Of a DNA stretch of 44,367 nucleotides, positions 21,695 to 31,912 are shown piece after piece. The stretch is taken from NCBI GenBank assembly GCA_019248265.1, contig JAEHGX010000010.1, positions 1 to 44,367 of the forward strand, given 5' to 3'. Position 1 is the first letter of the stretch, and each line of letters starts with the position of its first letter. The position numbers and the translations under genes were made by a program. Source of the DNA: Candidatus Falkowbacteria bacterium S5_I03 (GTDB lineage: Bacteria > Patescibacteriota > Patescibacteriia > Patescibacteriales > UBA12465). A model generated the notes under the pieces. That model ran no database searches. It was given only the letters and a program-made list of their open reading frames with translations, and was not told the origin of the DNA.

Positions 21695-23416
21695 ATGTAT
21701 ATCAAAGAGGAAAAATTAAAAGAAATTTTATTGGATTCCGGTTTGGTTGACGAAAAAACATTTGCGGACGCCCAGGCGGAGGCTTTTCGTTCCGGCCAAA
21801 ATATTATTAATGTTTTAGTGGGGCGCGAAGAAATATCTGAAGATTATTTGCTTGAACTTTTGGCTCCTTATTTTAATGTCCCCCTAATTAATTTAAAGAA
21901 AGTGGTAATCGATCCGGAAACCTTGAGGTTGTTGCCCGAGGCCTTTGCTAAGAGTCGAGGGGTGGTTGTTTTTGAATATAATTCAGAAGCGAAGAGTGCC
22001 AAAATCGCCATGCTTAATCCACTTGATTTAGACACCATTAACTTTATCAGCGCCAAATATGGCTTGTGGCCTGATGTTTATTTAACCTCTTCGGTTAGCT
22101 TGGCTTTTGTTTTTAAGCAATATCGTAAAACGATTGGCGCTAACTTCAATCAGATTATTGAAGAGAGTATCAAACAATCAGCTTCTTTGAGTGGGGAAAC
22201 CGATTTAGCAAAAATTGTCGAAGCTATTCCAATTGTCAGTATTTTAGATAGCATTTTGGAAAATGCGATTATGATGAATGCCTCGGATGTTCATTTTGAG
22301 CCCCTGCCTAAAAAATTATTAGTCAGATATCGCGTTGATGGCATTATGCAGGAAATTTTATCATTACCTAATGACATTAGTCAGATTTTAGTGGCGCGCG
22401 TTAAAATTTTGGCTGGCATGCAGATTGACGAACATCGCATTCCTCAAGATGGCCGCTTTCATTTTAATTTGGAGGCCGGCGCCAAGATTGATGTCCGGGT
22501 TAATGTAATGCCGGTTTTAAATGGTGAAAAAGCGGAAATGCGCTTGTTAAAGAGCTCGGCCAAGCCCCTGTCTTTATCTGACTTAGGAATTAATGAAAAT
22601 TTAGAAGGGCTTATTAGCGAGGAGATAAAAAAACCGCACGGTATGATTCTGGTTACTGGTCCGACTGGTCACGGTAAAACCACTACGCTTTATTCAATTT
22701 TACATATTTTAAATACCCCTAAGGTTAATATTACGACCATTGAAGACCCGATTGAATATGAAGTGGCCAGTATTAATCAAACCCAGGTTAATGCTAAAGC
22801 CGGGGTCACCTTCGCTAATGGTCTTAGAGCTTTGCTCCGTCAAAATCCTGATATTATCATGATTGGCGAAATCCGTGATAATGAAACTGCGGACATCGCC
22901 GTTCATTCAGCCTTAACCGGCCACCTGGTTTTGTCATCACTACACACTAATGACGCGCCTTCCGCCATTCCGCGCTTGCTGGACATGGGGACGATGCCGT
23001 TTTTGCTTTCGTCGACGCTTAATTTGGTTATCGCACAGCGCTTGGTCAGAAAAATTTGTACTTCTTGCGTAGAGTCTTATAAGCTCTCGGCGCTTGAGAA
23101 GACCTCCTTAGTCAAACAGTTGAATTTATCTGGCGTGCCAGCCAAAAAGAAGGCTAAGCTCATTCCTAGTTCCGCCTATCGCGGTCGCGGATGTAAGGTT
23201 TGTGAGGGCAGCGGTTTTTCCGGACAAGTCGGTATTTTTGAAGTTTTGTTGGTTGATGATAAGATTCGCGCTTTAATTACCAAATCGATGTCCGCCAGCC
23301 AAATCAGAAAAGCGGCCATTAGCGACGGCATGATTTCCATGTTTGAGGATGGTTTAGAGAAAGTTCAAAAAGGTTCAACTACGGTTGGTGAAATTTTGCG
23401 GGTAACTAGCGAATAA
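21695..23416 (+). CDS. pilB: Type IV pilus assembly ATPase PilB
   Basis: 573 residues. PilB is the hexameric motor that drives pilus extension at the inner membrane. N-terminal MshEN-type domain (about 1-150), then the N2 domain with ASDVHFEP near 197-204 and the motor. Walker A GPTGHGKTT starts at 322 (H in place of the usual S). ASP and HIS boxes are present, with the Walker B region DIIMIGEIRD at 386-395 and E392. A tetracysteine zinc motif C455-C458...C500-C503 is typical of PilB/GspE and absent from the retraction ATPase PilT. No pilT is seen in this window. pilC follows after 6 bp. Confidence 0.96.
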   Translation: MYIKEEKLKEILLDSGLVDEKTFADAQAEAFRSGQNIINVLVGREEISEDYLLELLAPYFNVPLINLKKVVIDPETLRLLPEAFAKSRGVVVFEYNSEAKSAKIAMLNPLDLDTINFISAKYGLWPDVYLTSSVSLAFVFKQYRKTIGANFNQIIEESIKQSASLSGETDLAKIVEAIPIVSILDSILENAIMMNASDVHFEPLPKKLLVRYRVDGIMQEILSLPNDISQILVARVKILAGMQIDEHRIPQDGRFHFNLEAGAKIDVRVNVMPVLNGEKAEMRLLKSSAKPLSLSDLGINENLEGLISEEIKKPHGMILVTGPTGHGKTTTLYSILHILNTPKVNITTIEDPIEYEVASINQTQVNAKAGVTFANGLRALLRQNPDIIMIGEIRDNETADIAVHSALTGHLVLSSLHTNDAPSAIPRLLDMGTMPFLLSSTLNLVIAQRLVRKICTSCVESYKLSALEKTSLVKQLNLSGVPAKKKAKLIPSSAYRGRGCKVCEGSGFSGQVGIFEVLLVDDKIRALITKSMSASQIRKAAISDGMISMFEDGLEKVQKGSTTVGEILRVTSE

Positions 23417-23422
23417 TTATAT

Positions 23423-24646
23423 ATGAGTTTATTTATTTACGAAGCGATTAATGAGGAAGGGAAAATTGTGGTCGCTGAAATTAATTCTTTAAATAGAGAG
23501 GAAGTGATTGCCGTTATTAATCAGAAACACTTAACCCCAATCAAGATTGAATTAAAAAGTGATAGCCAAAAAGCCAAAGAGCTGAATTCAATTGTGCTTT
23601 TTGACCGCTTTACTTATTTAGATCGGATAATTCTTATCCGCAACTTAGCCTCGACGATTAAGGCCGGCCTTACTTTAAGCGAAGCCCTGGAAATAATGGT
23701 GGCTGATAACAATAAAAAAATAGTTAGAGATTTTTTAATTGAAGCTCAGCAGAGTGTTTTAAACGGGCAAGCCTTGTCTTCAGTTTTTGCCAAGCATCCT
23801 AAGATTTTTTCACCGATTTTTTCCGGCATGATTAAGGCGGGTGAGAGTTCCGGCACTCTAGATAAATCCCTGGAAGAATTAAACCACCACCTTAATCGCG
23901 AATATAGTCTGATTAAAAAAGTTAAAGCCGCTTTAACTTATCCTCTAGTTTTAATAATCGCGTCCATTTCCATCGTAGTCGTGATGTTGATTTTTGTTTT
24001 GCCTAAACTGTCCAAATCTTTTACGCAAAATAATATCGAATTGCCGCTGCTTACGAGATTTTTGATAGATATTAGTCAGGCCCTGAGTTTTAGTTTTTTA
24101 TTGGACGCGGTTGTGGTAATTTTGCTAATTGTTTTTATTAAATATTTTAAAAAAACGGCTGTCGGTAAGAAAATTATTTCCTATATAATGTTTAATGCCC
24201 CTGGTTTTAAGAAGCTGATTAAAAAAGTAATGCTAGTTCGTTTTTCCAGAACCCTTGGCAGTTTGATTAGCGGCTCTTTATCAATTTCTGAATCCTTGAA
24301 CTTGACGGCTCGGGCTGTTGGCAATGAGCGCTATGAAGCGGCAATTTTGAAGGCCGGTGAAGATATAAAAAATGGTGCCCCGCTGTCTGAAGCCTTAAAA
24401 GATAATCCGGAGTTATTTCCTAATTTCTTGACCAGCTTAATGGCCGTGGGCGAGAAAACTGGTACCTTAGGCAATGTTTTGAAAAATTTTTCTGATTTTT
24501 ACGAAGAAGATGTTGAGGGCGCTTTAAAAGATTTGACCACTTTGCTGGAGCCGCTTCTGCTGTTATTTATGGGATTAACCGTCGGCCTGATTTCTTTAGC
24601 GATTTTAATGCCGATTTATCAGATGGTTGGCAGTTTTAAATATTAA
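23423..24646 (+). CDS. pilC: Type IV pilus inner-membrane platform protein PilC
   Basis: 407 residues, normal for PilC/GspF. Two repeated T2SSF domains: the first around 70-190 (LIRNLASTIKAGLTLSEALEIM, then GMIKAGESSGTLDKSLEELNHHL), the second around 270-395 (FSRTLGSLISGSLSISESLNL, then MAVGEKTGTLGNVLKNFSDFY). Membrane segments lie near 170-195, 215-240 and 375-400. PilC couples the PilB motor to pilin insertion. It sits in the pilB-pilC-minor pilin operon. Confidence 0.96.
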   Translation: MSLFIYEAINEEGKIVVAEINSLNREEVIAVINQKHLTPIKIELKSDSQKAKELNSIVLFDRFTYLDRIILIRNLASTIKAGLTLSEALEIMVADNNKKIVRDFLIEAQQSVLNGQALSSVFAKHPKIFSPIFSGMIKAGESSGTLDKSLEELNHHLNREYSLIKKVKAALTYPLVLIIASISIVVVMLIFVLPKLSKSFTQNNIELPLLTRFLIDISQALSFSFLLDAVVVILLIVFIKYFKKTAVGKKIISYIMFNAPGFKKLIKKVMLVRFSRTLGSLISGSLSISESLNLTARAVGNERYEAAILKAGEDIKNGAPLSEALKDNPELFPNFLTSLMAVGEKTGTLGNVLKNFSDFYEEDVEGALKDLTTLLEPLLLLFMGLTVGLISLAILMPIYQMVGSFKY

Positions 24647-24647
24647 G

Positions 24648-25115
24648 ATGCAAAATCATAGTAATTACAAGCCAGGCTTCACTTTATTAGAGCTATTATT
24701 GGTGATGGCGATTTTAACAATTGTCGCACTTACTAGTCGGGAAGTTTACAACGGGTTTGCCATGGGGAAAAATATTGATAGTGTTTCTAAGACTATAATT
24801 TTTGATTTACGAGTAGCTAGGAGCAATGCCATGAGCGGCCAAGAGAGTAATAATTGGGGAATTCATTTTGTAAATGGTGGCTCCGATTATTATGAATTTT
24901 TTTCCAGCCCTGGCGCCTATGCCCACGCCTCGACTAGTATCAAAACTACCACCTATTTAAGTGGTGGACTTAGTTTCTTAACACCGAGCGAGGGCAATAA
25001 TTTGGATATTATTTTTACCGGTTTAAGCGGAACTAGTTCCAGCGCAACTATTAGTGTTAAATCCGCCCAGGATCAAAAAAATATCATAGTTAATGCTGAG
25101 GGTCTGGTTAATTAA
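24648..25115 (+). CDS. Minor pilin (GspH/FimT-like)
   Basis: 155 residues from ATG at 24648, one base after the pilC stop. An upstream in-frame start would lie inside pilC and is not preferred. Prepilin site KPG-FTLLELLLVMAIL with E at +5, followed by a region typical of GspH/FimT (helix ...DSVSKTIIFDLRVARSNAMSGQESNNWGIHF). These are usually low-abundance subunits that start pilus assembly at the tip. The Ser/Gly/Thr-rich C-terminal part ends with IIVNAEGLVN, as in FimT. Confidence 0.9.
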   Translation: MQNHSNYKPGFTLLELLLVMAILTIVALTSREVYNGFAMGKNIDSVSKTIIFDLRVARSNAMSGQESNNWGIHFVNGGSDYYEFFSSPGAYAHASTSIKTTTYLSGGLSFLTPSEGNNLDIIFTGLSGTSSSATISVKSAQDQKNIIVNAEGLVN

Positions 25116-25778: not shown

Positions 25779-26777
25779 ATGGGACATAAATTCAAGCATC
25801 AGATTGCTGAAAATCAAAAGCGAAAAAAGATAAATTTAAAATGGCTGATTGTTCACTTTTTAGGAGTTTCTTTAATTATCTCTATAGCCGTTGGTGTAAC
25901 AATTTTTATGATGCGCCAACAAGATTTCAATGCCGTTAAAGCTGAAATTGCCAAGTATAATTTATTGGACCCCGCCAGGAGCGTTGTTGAACAAGAAAAT
26001 TTTTTTAGTACCATTGAGCCGGTGCGCAGGCAGATGAAAGAAATAGTCGCTAAATATGAAAAAGATGGTAATAAAATTGGTGTTTATTTTGAGTTTTTAA
26101 ATACTGGCGCCAATGTTTCCATTAATCAAGATGCTAGATTTTGGCCGGCTTCGCTTAGTAAAATGCCGACAATTTTTGTGGTCATGAGACGAGTAGAGGA
26201 CGGGAAGTGGAAACTTTCTAATGAATTAGTCTTGTTTGAAGAGGATAAAGATGACCGTTTCGGAGAACTTTATAAAAAGCCGGTCGGCACCAAGTTTACC
26301 ATTGAAGAATTGATAAAAGAAACATTAATTAATTCCGATAACACCGCTCACAAAATTTTAGTCAGAAATTTGAGTGGTGAGGAATATACGGATATGTTTG
26401 AGGCTTTAGGGATGGAGCAGCTTTTTAATGAAGATTATAATATTACCGCCAAAGAATATTCTCGCGTTTTTCGCGCTTTATACAATGCTAGTTATTTAAA
26501 CCGTAATAACTCGCAACAGCTTTTGCAATGGCTATCGGAGAGCAAATTTAATGAATTTGTGGGCGCCGGCATCGACCCTGATATTGTTTTTTCTCATAAG
26601 ATCGGCGAAGAGTTTAAAGAAGTAGTATTTTTGGATTCCGGGATTGTTTATGTTCCTAATCGTCCCTACTTAATTACTATTATGGTTGAAGTTGAGGACG
26701 GTGGCGGAGTCGAGCATGCCCAAGAAATTATGAAAGAATTATCAAAATCAGCTTATGATTATGTCTCTCAGAACTAA
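25779..26777 (+). CDS. Membrane-anchored class A beta-lactamase-fold serine hydrolase
   Basis: 332 residues from ATG at 25779. A longer frame upstream overlaps the pilin gene and is rejected. Basic N-terminus, membrane anchor near 22-44, then a serine beta-lactamase/D-Ala-D-Ala carboxypeptidase-like fold: SxxK as S125-L-S-K128, SDN at 186-188, and K274-I-G276 replacing KTG. No clear class A ExxLN glutamate motif (E166) was found, so it may not be a true beta-lactamase. A cell wall or pilus-associated acyl-enzyme role (carboxypeptidase, esterase) is more likely. It lies inside the minor pilin operon, 7 bp after the pilin and overlapping the next gene by 23 bp, which suggests coupled expression with the surface protein. 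Confidence 0.82.
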   Translation: MGHKFKHQIAENQKRKKINLKWLIVHFLGVSLIISIAVGVTIFMMRQQDFNAVKAEIAKYNLLDPARSVVEQENFFSTIEPVRRQMKEIVAKYEKDGNKIGVYFEFLNTGANVSINQDARFWPASLSKMPTIFVVMRRVEDGKWKLSNELVLFEEDKDDRFGELYKKPVGTKFTIEELIKETLINSDNTAHKILVRNLSGEEYTDMFEALGMEQLFNEDYNITAKEYSRVFRALYNASYLNRNNSQQLLQWLSESKFNEFVGAGIDPDIVFSHKIGEEFKEVVFLDSGIVYVPNRPYLITIMVEVEDGGGVEHAQEIMKELSKSAYDYVSQN

Positions 26778-29700
26778 AAAATTAAGACAATCAATTTTAG
26801 CAGCTATTTTATTGGTAGTCTTTTTTATTTCTGGGTTTCCTTCTGAGCCGCTATTACAAAAATTAGTCAAAATAATCAGTGATCGTAATGTAGTTGATTC
26901 GCTATACCTCTCTTTAAACGATACTAATGTTATTGATTCGAAAATGGCCAATCTTTTTAAGCCCCAAATTAAGCAAGCATCCGCTGCCACCTACCAAGTC
27001 CAAACCGGATACTATATTGGTAACGGCGGCGCCAAATCTATCACCGGTCTGGGATTTAGGCCAGAGATGATTATTTTAAAAGCCAACACTAATGCCGGTA
27101 CTGGCGCACTACTCAAGACTAGTGCCATGCCCGTTTTAAATAGCTCATATTTAGGTGTTGCTACGGCTGATGTGGCCTCAGCAATTATGATTGACGCTGA
27201 TGGTTTCACTGTTACTGGCGCTTTGTCTAATACCGCCGGCGTCCGGCACGTTTGGGTCGCCTTTGCCGGTTCAGATTGTTCAGCAACCGGAACGTTTTGC
27301 GTCGGTTCATATACTGGGACGGGAGCGGCCAAGGCGGTGACAGTTGGTTTTCAACCAGACTTGATATTAGTCAAACAAAATACGGCCGTGGCGGCCAATT
27401 GGCGTTCGTCGGCGATGCCCACGAATGCCGGGCAATACTTTATGGCCACTACCCAAAATACGGCCGGAGCCCTATACACTACAATTGATGCCACCGGGTT
27501 TTCGGTTGGAACCACTAATAGTGCCAGCGCCGGTATCTACTATTTTGCTGCCTTTAAAGCTAGCGCCGGCTCGGTTAATGTTGGCACCTATACCGGCCAC
27601 GCGACTGATAATCGTAATATCACTGGTGTTGGCTTTGTGCCTGATTTTTTGTTTTTGAAAAATGCCAACGCGACGACGGCTGTCTCGGGAATGTTTAGCG
27701 TGAACGAATCATATGGCGACAACGCCAGTTATTTTACCGATACCGCCAATCTAGTTAATTCCATTCAAGCTCAACAAACAGATGGCTTCCAAGTGGGATC
27801 GCATGCCACTTCTAATGGCTCCGGCAACATTATTTATTATGCCGCCTTCGGCGGCGCGAATGCTGTCAGGAATTCTAGTGGCACCTACAAAATGGCCTCA
27901 GGCACTTATACAGGGACTGGGCAATATCAAAGTATTTCTGGTCTGGATTTTAAACCAGATTTAGTAATTGTCAAAACTACCGGGACGGTGGCCGGCGTGT
28001 TTAGAACCAGCCAAATGGCTGGTGATACTACCTCTTATCTTGATTCTGCGACAACTAATATTACCGGCGCGATTACTTCCATTAAATCTGATGGTTTTAC
28101 AGTTTATAATCACGCGACAACTAACACTGCCGGCACCGTCTACCATTGGCAGGCCTTCGGTAATGCTTGGAATCCAGAAACCAATTCCGGTTCGGGAGAT
28201 TTCTATATCGGCGCCTATTATGGCAATGGAATCGATAATCGCAACATTACCCGTTTGCCGTTTCAAGCTAATATGTTGGCCATCAAGGTTGTTGGTGCCG
28301 TCGCCGGTATTTTTAGAACCTCTAGTCATGTCGGCGATTTAAGCAGTTTCTATGCCGCCACCGCTGATGCTGCTAATCATGTGCAAGCTCTGCAAACAGA
28401 CGGTTTTCAAATTGGAACGAGTACTAGTGTTAATAGTTCGGCTGGTATGTTTTATTATTTTGGATTCAAAAATGGAACTAATTTCAAAGTCGGCTTATAT
28501 ACCGGAACTGGAGCGGATAATCGGAGTATCACTGACCCCGGTTTTGATCCCGACTTAGTTTGGGTGAAAAGAAATACTAATTCCGCTGGCGTCCAAAGAC
28601 CGCGAACCTTAACGGGCGACTTAACCCAATATTTTATTACCACCGCGCAAGCGGCGGACAAGATTCAAGCCTTCGTGACTGGCGGTTTCCAAGTTGGTCT
28701 CGGCGCGGAAGTTAATGCTGCTTCCGGAGCTTATATATATGTGGCGTGGAAACAGAATTCTACGCAAACAATAGTGCCCCCCACCTACCAAGTCCAAACC
28801 GGATACTATATTGGTAACGGCGGCGCCAAATCTATCACCGGTCTGGGATTTAGGCCAGAGATGATTATTTTAAAAGCCAACACTAATGCCGGTACTGGCG
28901 CACTACTCAAGACTAGTGCCATGCCCGTTTTAAATAGCTCATATTTAGGTGTTGCTACGGCTGATGTGGCCTCAGCAATTATGATTGACGCTGATGGTTT
29001 CACTGTTACTGGCGCTTTGTCTAATACCGCCGGCGTCCGGCACGTTTGGGTCGCCTTTGCCGGTTCAGATTGTTCAGCAACCGGAACGTTTTGCGTCGGT
29101 TCATATACTGGGACGGGAGCGGCCAAGGCGGTGACAGTTGGTTTTCAACCAGACTTGATATTAGTCAAACAAAATACGGCCGTGGCGGCCAATTGGCGTT
29201 CGTCGGCGATGCCCACGAATGCCGGGCAATACTTTATGGCCACTACCCAAAATACGGCCGGAGCCCTATACACTACAATTGATGCCACCGGGTTTTCGGT
29301 TGGAACCACTAATAGTGCCAGCGCCGGTATCTACTATTTTGCTGCCTTTAAAGCTAGCGCCGGCTCGGTTAATGTTGGCACCTATACCGGCAACGCGACT
29401 GATAATCGTAATATTACTGGTGTTGGCTTTGTGCCTGATTTTTTGTTTTTGAAAAATGCCAACGCGACGACGGCTGTCTCGGGAATGTTTAGCGTGAACG
29501 AATCATATGGCGACAACGCCAGTTATTTTACCGATACCGCCAATCTAGTTAATTCCATTCAAGCTCAACAAACAGATGGCTTCCAAGTGGGATCGCATGC
29601 CACTTCTAATGGCTCCGGCAACATTATTTATTATGCCGCCTTCGGCGGCGCGAATGCTGTCAGGAATTCTAGTGGCACCTACAAAATGGCCTCAGGCACT

Positions 29701-30942
29701 TATACAGGGACTGGGCAATATCAAAGTATTTCTGGTCTGGATTTTAAACCAGATTTAGTAATTGTCAAAACTACCGGGACGGTGGCCGGCGTGTTTAGAA
29801 CCAGCCAAATGGCTGGTGATACTACCTCTTATCTTGATTCTGCGACAACTAATATTACCGGCGCGATTACTTCCATTAAATCTGATGGTTTTACAGTTTA
29901 TAATCACGCGACAACTAACACTGCCGGCACCGTCTACCATTGGCAGGCCTTCGGTAATGCTTGGAATCCAGAAACCAATTCCGGTTCGGGAGATTTCTAT
30001 ATCGGCGCCTATTATGGCAATGGAATCGATAATCGCAACATTACCCGTTTGCCGTTTCAAGCTAATATGTTGGCCATCAAGGTTGTTGGTGCCGTCGCCG
30101 GTATTTTTAGAACCTCTAGTCATGTCGGCGATTTAAGCAGTTTCTATGCCGCCACCGCTGATGCTGCTAATCATGTGCAAGCTCTGCAAACAGACGGTTT
30201 TCAAATTGGAACGAGTACTAGTGTTAATAGTTCGGCTGGTATGTTTTATTATTTTGGATTCAAAAATGGAACTAATTTCAAAGTCGGCTTATATACCGGA
30301 ACTGGAGCGGATAATCGGAGTATCACTGACCCCGGTTTTGATCCCGACTTAGTTTGGGTGAAAAGAAATACTAATTCCGCTGGCGTCCAAAGACCGCGAA
30401 CCTTAACGGGCGACTTAACCCAATATTTTATTACCACCGCGCAAGCGGCGGACAAGATTCAAGCCTTCGTGACTGGCGGTTTCCAAGTTGGTCTCGGCGC
30501 GGAAGTCAATGCTTCTGGCGGCGCTTATATATATGTGGCGTGGAAAATACCTAGTGCGGTAACAGTCGGTTATCCCGCCTACGGAGATTTGATATCGGTT
30601 GTTTTTGATTCAACCGGGAATGCTAATGGCGCGGCTTACAATTCAATTATGTGGCGCGGCAGTTTAGGCGGGCCGGCTTTAAACCAGGGAAGCGTAAAAT
30701 TTCAGATTGCCGCCTCAGATAGTTCTACTGGCCCCTGGAATTATATCGGTGCCGGTTGTATCGGCGGCGATAGTGATTGGTATTCTCCTGATTCCGATCT
30801 TCCTGTCCAGCTTTCCTGTTACAGCGATCTTAATAACAAGCGGTACTTTAGGTATAAGGTTAGAATCTGTTCTAGCGATTGTGTCAGTGGTGGTGATTAT
30901 ACGCCGCAAATAAATGAGATTATGATTAGTTGGAGTCCTTAA
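26755..30942 (+). CDS. 1395-residue repeat surface protein, likely pilus-associated adhesin
   Basis: Signal peptide or anchor near 8-28 (basic, then LAAILLVVFFISG). After a 77-residue head come two copies of a 598-residue block, nearly identical, each made of six units of about 95 residues. The unit pattern is G.YTG.G...SI.GL.F.PD.V.VK...GVF.TS...GD...Y........I.....DGF.V......N..G..YY..AF, so the protein has 12 units. I see a resemblance to phage or surface repeats with GFxPDLVxVK motifs, but cannot name a family with certainty. A C-terminal domain of about 130 residues (VFDST, YNSIMWRGSLGGP, VKFQIAAS, FRYKVRICSS, INEIMISWSP) is of the discoidin-like type common on large CPR surface proteins. 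Position between minor pilins suggests it is exported with, or displayed on, the pilus, like PilY1 in other systems. A start at 26761 is equally possible. Confidence 0.88.
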   Translation: MIMSLRTKKLRQSILAAILLVVFFISGFPSEPLLQKLVKIISDRNVVDSLYLSLNDTNVIDSKMANLFKPQIKQASAATYQVQTGYYIGNGGAKSITGLGFRPEMIILKANTNAGTGALLKTSAMPVLNSSYLGVATADVASAIMIDADGFTVTGALSNTAGVRHVWVAFAGSDCSATGTFCVGSYTGTGAAKAVTVGFQPDLILVKQNTAVAANWRSSAMPTNAGQYFMATTQNTAGALYTTIDATGFSVGTTNSASAGIYYFAAFKASAGSVNVGTYTGHATDNRNITGVGFVPDFLFLKNANATTAVSGMFSVNESYGDNASYFTDTANLVNSIQAQQTDGFQVGSHATSNGSGNIIYYAAFGGANAVRNSSGTYKMASGTYTGTGQYQSISGLDFKPDLVIVKTTGTVAGVFRTSQMAGDTTSYLDSATTNITGAITSIKSDGFTVYNHATTNTAGTVYHWQAFGNAWNPETNSGSGDFYIGAYYGNGIDNRNITRLPFQANMLAIKVVGAVAGIFRTSSHVGDLSSFYAATADAANHVQALQTDGFQIGTSTSVNSSAGMFYYFGFKNGTNFKVGLYTGTGADNRSITDPGFDPDLVWVKRNTNSAGVQRPRTLTGDLTQYFITTAQAADKIQAFVTGGFQVGLGAEVNAASGAYIYVAWKQNSTQTIVPPTYQVQTGYYIGNGGAKSITGLGFRPEMIILKANTNAGTGALLKTSAMPVLNSSYLGVATADVASAIMIDADGFTVTGALSNTAGVRHVWVAFAGSDCSATGTFCVGSYTGTGAAKAVTVGFQPDLILVKQNTAVAANWRSSAMPTNAGQYFMATTQNTAGALYTTIDATGFSVGTTNSASAGIYYFAAFKASAGSVNVGTYTGNATDNRNITGVGFVPDFLFLKNANATTAVSGMFSVNESYGDNASYFTDTANLVNSIQAQQTDGFQVGSHATSNGSGNIIYYAAFGGANAVRNSSGTYKMASGTYTGTGQYQSISGLDFKPDLVIVKTTGTVAGVFRTSQMAGDTTSYLDSATTNITGAITSIKSDGFTVYNHATTNTAGTVYHWQAFGNAWNPETNSGSGDFYIGAYYGNGIDNRNITRLPFQANMLAIKVVGAVAGIFRTSSHVGDLSSFYAATADAANHVQALQTDGFQIGTSTSVNSSAGMFYYFGFKNGTNFKVGLYTGTGADNRSITDPGFDPDLVWVKRNTNSAGVQRPRTLTGDLTQYFITTAQAADKIQAFVTGGFQVGLGAEVNASGGAYIYVAWKIPSAVTVGYPAYGDLISVVFDSTGNANGAAYNSIMWRGSLGGPALNQGSVKFQIAASDSSTGPWNYIGAGCIGGDSDWYSPDSDLPVQLSCYSDLNNKRYFRYKVRICSSDCVSGGDYTPQINEIMISWSP
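26987..28780 (+). repeat. Tandem duplication, copy 1 (1794 bp)
   Basis: Copy 1 begins at CCACCTACCA. Copy 2 repeats it exactly 1794 bp later, i.e. 598 codons in frame. By direct comparison the copies differ at only two bases in the first 1.7 kb, C27598 against A29392 (H to N) and C27621 against T29415 (silent). Five or so more differences cluster near the end (28713-28727), after which they match for about 24 bp and then diverge. Confidence 0.95.
28781..30552 (+). repeat. Tandem duplication, copy 2
   Basis: Second copy of the block, directly abutting copy 1, matching until about 30546. The end of the match is marked by GTGGCGTGGAAA in both copies. The last part holds a cluster of substitutions, consistent with a gene-conversion edge or a divergence that predates the duplication of the rest. 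Confidence 0.95.
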
Positions 30943-30945
30943 TTT

Positions 30946-31479
30946 ATGGCCAGCAAAGATTTAAAAACAAAATTAAAATCAGGCTTTACATTAATGGAGC
31001 TGCTTTTGTATTTATCAGTGCTCCTCGTCATGTCGGTTATTTTGGCTAATACCTTTTTATTGATTAATAAAGGCGGCTCCAATGTTCAGGCTAAAAGCGA
31101 ACTTAATTCCAATTTTACTTTTATTAACGCCAAGATTAAAAGAGATATTTTGTTAGCAACAGCGCTTACTACTCCGGCTAGTGCTGGAGCGACTTCCAGT
31201 GTTTTAGATTTAACAATAGCCGGCCAATCAATAAAATATACTTTAAGCAATAATCGAATTACTCGCCAAATAAACAGTCAGCCAGCCGAGTATATCAGCT
31301 CCGATTTTATCAGAATCAATGATTTGCAATTTACGCGCTTAGAAAATTCCAATAGTGTATTGGGCAAGAAGCGAGTCGGAGTGGAGATAGATTTTTCTGG
31401 CGCCTATAATAGTTCTAGTTCGGAATTAAATTATGGGCAAAGCCAGAAAACGACCATCAATTTAAATCAAGATTTCTAG
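30946..31479 (+). CDS. Minor pilin (PilW/GspJ-like)
   Basis: 177 residues. Leader KSG-FTLMELLLYLSVLLVMS: a canonical prepilin site with E at +5. The GspJ/PilW family often has the longer N-terminal LxYL helix followed by a head with repeated short strands, as here. Three bp separate it from the giant surface-protein gene and 1 bp from the next gene, so these are one operon. Confidence 0.88.
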   Translation: MASKDLKTKLKSGFTLMELLLYLSVLLVMSVILANTFLLINKGGSNVQAKSELNSNFTFINAKIKRDILLATALTTPASAGATSSVLDLTIAGQSIKYTLSNNRITRQINSQPAEYISSDFIRINDLQFTRLENSNSVLGKKRVGVEIDFSGAYNSSSSELNYGQSQKTTINLNQDF

Positions 31480-31480
31480 T

Positions 31481-31912
31481 ATGCTTATCAAAAAAAGAGA
31501 CAAAAGCGGTGTCGCCTCCATCCCTCTAGTATTGGGTTTATTAATTTTGATTATTTCGGTCGGTCTTTTTATTAGTTCAATCAGTTTGTCAGATAGCCTG
31601 GCAACCAGTAATCAGGATAAATCAAATTTAGCTTTAGAATATGCTCAGATTGGCGCTAAGGAAGCTTTGGTCAAAATTGCTAGACAGCCGTGTAACTCAT
31701 GCTCCAATAGTTTTCAGATAGAAACAGTGACTGGCGGCTGCTCTGGAGGCATAGCTGGGTGTATTACTGTCGACTACGCACCGCTAACGGCGCCAACTAG
31801 CAGCGAAATTGTTATTACTTCCGAAGGTCATATTTATGATATTTCCCGAACGGTTCAAGTTAATGCAATTTTAGACAATTACGGAAAAATCGCCAGTTAT
31901 ACTTGGCAGTAA
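31481..31912 (+). CDS. PilX/GspK-like minor pilin without E5
   Basis: 143 residues. N-terminal basic stretch, SG-VASIPLVLGLLILIISVGLFI membrane segment. G-V fits a cleavage site but +5 is P, not E, so it lacks the glutamate that GspK also lacks in many systems. Cys-rich head (C68, C71, C83, C90) with PCNSC pattern. GspK/PilX caps the tip complex in type II secretion and pilus priming. Last gene of the plus-strand pilus operon. Its stop is 2 bp from the stop of the converging LytR_C gene. Confidence 0.75.
   Translation: MLIKKRDKSGVASIPLVLGLLILIISVGLFISSISLSDSLATSNQDKSNLALEYAQIGAKEALVKIARQPCNSCSNSFQIETVTGGCSGGIAGCITVDYAPLTAPTSSEIVITSEGHIYDISRTVQVNAILDNYGKIASYTWQ

Follow-up and report, generated by a model that had tools for sequence, protein, structure and literature searches.

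Related systems

Surface proteins with long, identical repeats in frame are believed to gain or lose repeat units by recombination (PMC8201768, PMC9704523). Proteins such as Sgo_0707, SasG, Rib and CdrA have been described as Periscope Proteins (Whelan et al., 2021; PMC8201768). A second point of comparison comes from a cultivated Saccharibacterium, in which host binding depends in part on type IV pili; the minor pilin PilX2, which carries an additional beta-propeller, has been proposed as the adhesin (PMC12206443).

The window analyzed here, 44,367 nt long, is the complete contig JAEHGX010000010.1 of Candidatus Falkowbacteria bacterium S5_I03 (G000 below), whose genome is 1.11 Mb in 75 contigs with an estimated completeness of 89%. 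This bacterium is tiny and probably host-dependent, and the size and gene content of its genome agree with Patescibacteria. An open reading frame of 1,395 aa (26755–30942; forward strand, as are all features below) carries a large block duplication in frame. With Periscope Proteins it shares long, near-identical tandem repeats that keep the reading frame of a surface-type protein, here putatively exported, for which length change by recombination is expected, and its unit of 598 aa, with copies about 99% identical in amino acids, places it within their sequence definition (PMC8201768). It differs in that its unit comprises six diverged domains rather than a single one (84–90 residues in Sgo_0707), in that two copies are seen, in its Patescibacterial origin, and in that no surface-anchor motif was identified in the protein. 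Tail fibre and virion proteins of phages with DUF7483 (PF24299) have the same domain family and fold and possibly the same receptor-binding role, but here the gene is cellular, has an export segment and stands at a pilus locus. The Saccharibacterial PilX-type minor pilins (PMC12206443) likewise belong to a Patescibacterial type IV pilus locus and have a large extra module; unlike them, the window protein lacks the pilin signature and its module is DUF7483, not a jelly roll or RCC1 propeller. We class it as a partner at the locus and not as a pilin.

The duplication is real and recurrent, and is a variant of the Periscope-type repeats in which six diverged domains would act as one recombining block. 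Its gene product is probably an exported, modular, adhesive protein of a Patescibacterial type IV pilus locus, which would adhere to the host cell; the six-domain block is best explained as its recognition or stalk part. To our knowledge, little is established about how Patescibacteria recognize their hosts and stay attached to them, and a protein of the pilus locus whose six-domain blocks probably recombine is a concrete candidate for either task.

The duplication

Self-comparison of the window at an offset of 1,794 nt (598 aa, in frame) aligned 26987–28712 with 28781–30506, 1,726 nt with two differences: C/A at 27598, changing H to N, and the synonymous C/T at 27621. So close a match along 1.7 kb is not attributable to chance; beyond the repeat, sequences at this offset agree at background level only. 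The next 16 nt (28713–28728) hold five differences between copies, and are followed by 24 identical bases (28729–28752). Past 28752 the sequences diverge, copy 1 running into a unique 28-nt linker (QNSTQTIVPP, 28753–28780) and copy 2 into the unique C-terminal region. Copy 1 thus spans 26987–28752 and copy 2 28781–30546, each recognized by the self-match, copy 1 in addition by its DUF7483 matches and domain starts. The preliminary description had reported an in-frame duplication inside a surface protein gene, with two base differences over the first 1.7 kb and a cluster of substitutions near the ends of the copies; all of this was reproduced, the cluster lying in the last 50 nt. It had also called the copies abutting, which is not strictly so, as the linker stands between them.

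The copies differ by a dS of 0.002, against 0.9–1.7 for the flanking genes in comparison with the sister species G003. A simple young duplication should leave uniform identity up to the junction, and is disfavored by the five changes there, which show the tail at the end of copy 1 to be older than the body.

The junction also bears on whether the second copy exists. That the cell has a single block, the second copy being spurious, is very improbable: the junction contains both the 28-nt linker and a 16-nt tail unlike the end of the other copy, sequence of a kind that assemblers do not invent, and the same architecture occurs in a genome of another family (G217). The two base differences had been put forward earlier as the argument against assembly collapse, and they are indeed kept apart in the copies, but the junction is the stronger argument. 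Collapse could not produce a tandem junction that has a sequence of its own, so some cells must have two blocks or more.

Protein architecture

The N-terminal 77 aa (26755–26985) form a putative export segment, recognized from the translation and from homologs: a hydrophobic stretch, then a spacer whose end, immediately ahead of copy 1, is an AxA motif (QASA), the stretch and motif having been spotted by eye. This N-terminus is homologous in G217, G652 and G058, and in most homologs an AxA-type motif precedes the first block at the same place. Cleavage at the motif is uncertain, because about 45 residues separate it from the hydrophobic segment. The duplicated protein has no match to the pilin methylation motif N_methyl in Pfam; PilX1 and PilX2 of TM7x are also without a predicted PilD signal peptide (PMC12206443).

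Each block is made of six diverged beta-domains, with starting motifs at block residues 7, 106, 199, 305, 408 and 502 and pairwise identities of 29–41% (amino acid) and 56–66% (nucleotide). The DUF7483 profile matches with 224 bits (curated Pfam cut-off, 27), and the protein also matches a PHROG named tail fibre protein. An AlphaFold model of one block is confident, with pLDDT 87.6 and pTM 0.80; domains 1–3 modeled alone reach pTM 0.89 and resemble models of viral DUF7483 proteins with TM up to 0.84. A PDB fold search with the block gave no clear match, and sequence searches found no convincing relative of solved structure. Domains 1–3 match single-chain C1q and adiponectin trimers in the PDB weakly, along all three domains (Z about 5, rmsd about 5); this hints at a possible pseudo-trimer, a lead only, since Z is too low to rely on. 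No close viral source was found in viral_contigs. The phage matches obtained are all distant, at 26–34% amino acid identity. The literature searched makes no mention of DUF7483.

Two further ideas on the block were rejected. Foreign origin was considered for its GC content of 47%, but its GC3 of 44% resembles the 42% of the PilB gene, and composition is no evidence. Specially conserved block edges were considered for the 31 and 24 nt shared there with G003; these are not exceptional, because in a 33-kb comparison with that genome a 35-nt run ranks only 26th among 229 runs of at least 20.

The unique C-terminal domain (30547–30942) has no Pfam match above cut-off (30571–30939). In G001, G004 and G051 it follows N-terminal parts other than that of the window and precedes the same two pilin-type genes. 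A related stretch was noticed by eye in G057, inside a 3,527-aa open reading frame with RCC1-like repeats.

Gene neighborhood

Upstream lie genes for a PilB-type ATPase and a PilC-type platform protein (21695–24646; T2SSE and T2SSF matches in Pfam), then a GspH-like pilin-type gene (24627–25115; N_methyl match in Pfam) and a serine hydrolase gene of class A beta-lactamase / S11-like fold (25779–26777; Pfam match, start codon presumed), the last of which runs past the point where the duplicated gene begins. Downstream are a pilin-type gene (30946–31479), with an N_methyl match just below cut-off, and another small gene belonging to the pilin cluster (31481–31912); G001, G004 and G051 have both genes in the same position after the C-terminal domain.

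The serine hydrolase gene is colinear in G003. It is also the partner gene in G217, G058 and G652, at 62–69% amino acid identity, better kept than the block; hydrolase, export segment and block occur together in these three genomes. In G217 the module has another C-terminal domain and lies away from any pilus cluster, a point against the pilus-locus reading. Because the C-terminal domain and the hydrolase-export-block module each recur apart in relatives, the duplicated gene appears to be a fusion between a traveling two-gene module and a pilus-locus domain. Possible targets of the hydrolase itself are the cell wall and the exported protein.

Block number in relatives

Relatives were sought in about 1,100 genome searches, in which some genomes count more than once, and one genome per species was compared; across genera there are one or two blocks. 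Single blocks were found in G058, G652, G616, G274, G260 and G180, and probably in G849. Two blocks occur in G472 (L050), where they have diverged to 69% nucleotide identity with a fibronectin-like stretch inserted between them; any homogenization is thus not universal. The other two-block case is G217, where the block, 49% identical in amino acids to that of the window, is duplicated with copies identical over 1,744 nt. The linker of G217 (ANSSQESSSP) has the same length as that of G000 and is similar to it: four of the ten positions are identical, N-S-x-Q and P being shared (permutation p about 0.007 by score). In both genomes the last block ends in W-[KN]-I-P. In the tree each genome's own copies pair, for G000 as for G217 (100/100), and the two genomes form a group (88/93).

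These data can be read in two ways. The blocks in G000 and G217 may have been duplicated independently and very recently, being alike through youth, with no continuing homogenization. Such a history is possible but somewhat unlikely. The dS of 0.002, the single block of most homologs and that of G058, which belongs to the same order as G000 (block 58% identical in amino acids), would all suit it; against it stand the older tail at 28713–28728, the likeness and equal length of the two linkers, and the assembly break of G003, all of which suggest an older tandem array. The preliminary description had left the choice between a recent duplication and conversion, and both readings stand, with conversion somewhat better supported. 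One old duplication followed by homogenization is modestly favored by the sequences over two young ones, because the linkers are similar and of the same length whereas the last blocks end differently, in W-[KN]-I-P, an argument that rests on ten residues, and because G000 and G217 group together while copies pair within each genome.

On balance we consider it somewhat more probable than not that the gene carries a recombining tandem array, with blocks kept alike and changeable in number, in what is probably an adhesive protein of the pilus locus. Within a block the domains are too different for efficient recombination, but from one block to the next there is near-identity along 1.7 kb, and recombination would therefore involve blocks as wholes. 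These would be kept alike by gene conversion or unequal exchange, which would also add or remove whole blocks, 598 residues in frame at each step, and so alter how far the protein reaches or its valency, as is proposed for Periscope Proteins. Under such recombination the blocks would be homogenized and copy number would vary between cells; the phase or antigenic variation suggested in the preliminary description is hypothetical.

Assembly of repeated blocks

In a short-read assembly graph, two blocks or ten make the same loop, and all are given one consensus. From a single pass through the loop, an assembler would obtain exactly two copies of near-identical consensus; because of this, two blocks are a lower bound and the 99.9% identity may be an overestimate. 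That the real array has more, or more diverged, blocks is a serious possibility, short of probable, and is compatible with a recombining array. The window comes from a metagenome-assembled genome of 75 contigs, the copies in G217 are identical over their whole 1,744 nt, and repeats of this kind are left unresolved by short reads (PMC9704523). Against it, the two base differences and the distinct tail were kept separate in the window's copies; it touches the number and identity of the blocks, not the existence of the tandem junction. Overlap of other contigs with the window's ends, sought as a guide to the assembler's k, was not found.

G003, of the same genus, is a nearly complete genome assembled as a single contig (976,925 nt) that is colinear with the window (82–84% nucleotide identity), and both of its ends lie inside the homologous gene (L003, L008). 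The contig stops 179 nt past the start of the block, and its first base lies 141 nt short of where the block ends. With random ends, a break in a given 1.8-kb gene would fall to about 0.2% of such genomes; the simplest reading is that the G003 array is probably repetitive too and stopped the assembly. The start, 141 nt before the point where the window's copies part, would fit a de Bruijn break at k = 141, which the other end, 179 nt inside, fits less neatly. Short-read genomes may therefore hide such arrays, this one-contig relative breaking exactly in the homologous gene.

A wider reading would have a higher-order repeat system in host-dependent Patescibacteria, with concerted evolution keeping the six-domain block identical across families, growth and loss in 1.8-kb steps at a pilus locus, and single cells differing in reach or valency toward the host. 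As a whole we think this unlikely; if true, databases would miss such arrays, since short reads break or under-count them.

Further homologs

One relative of the duplicated gene is in a record named as Saccharibacteria. In UBA1949 (L009, 5866–8344) there is one six-domain set, split over two overlapping frames; the split may be a frameshift or a sequencing error.
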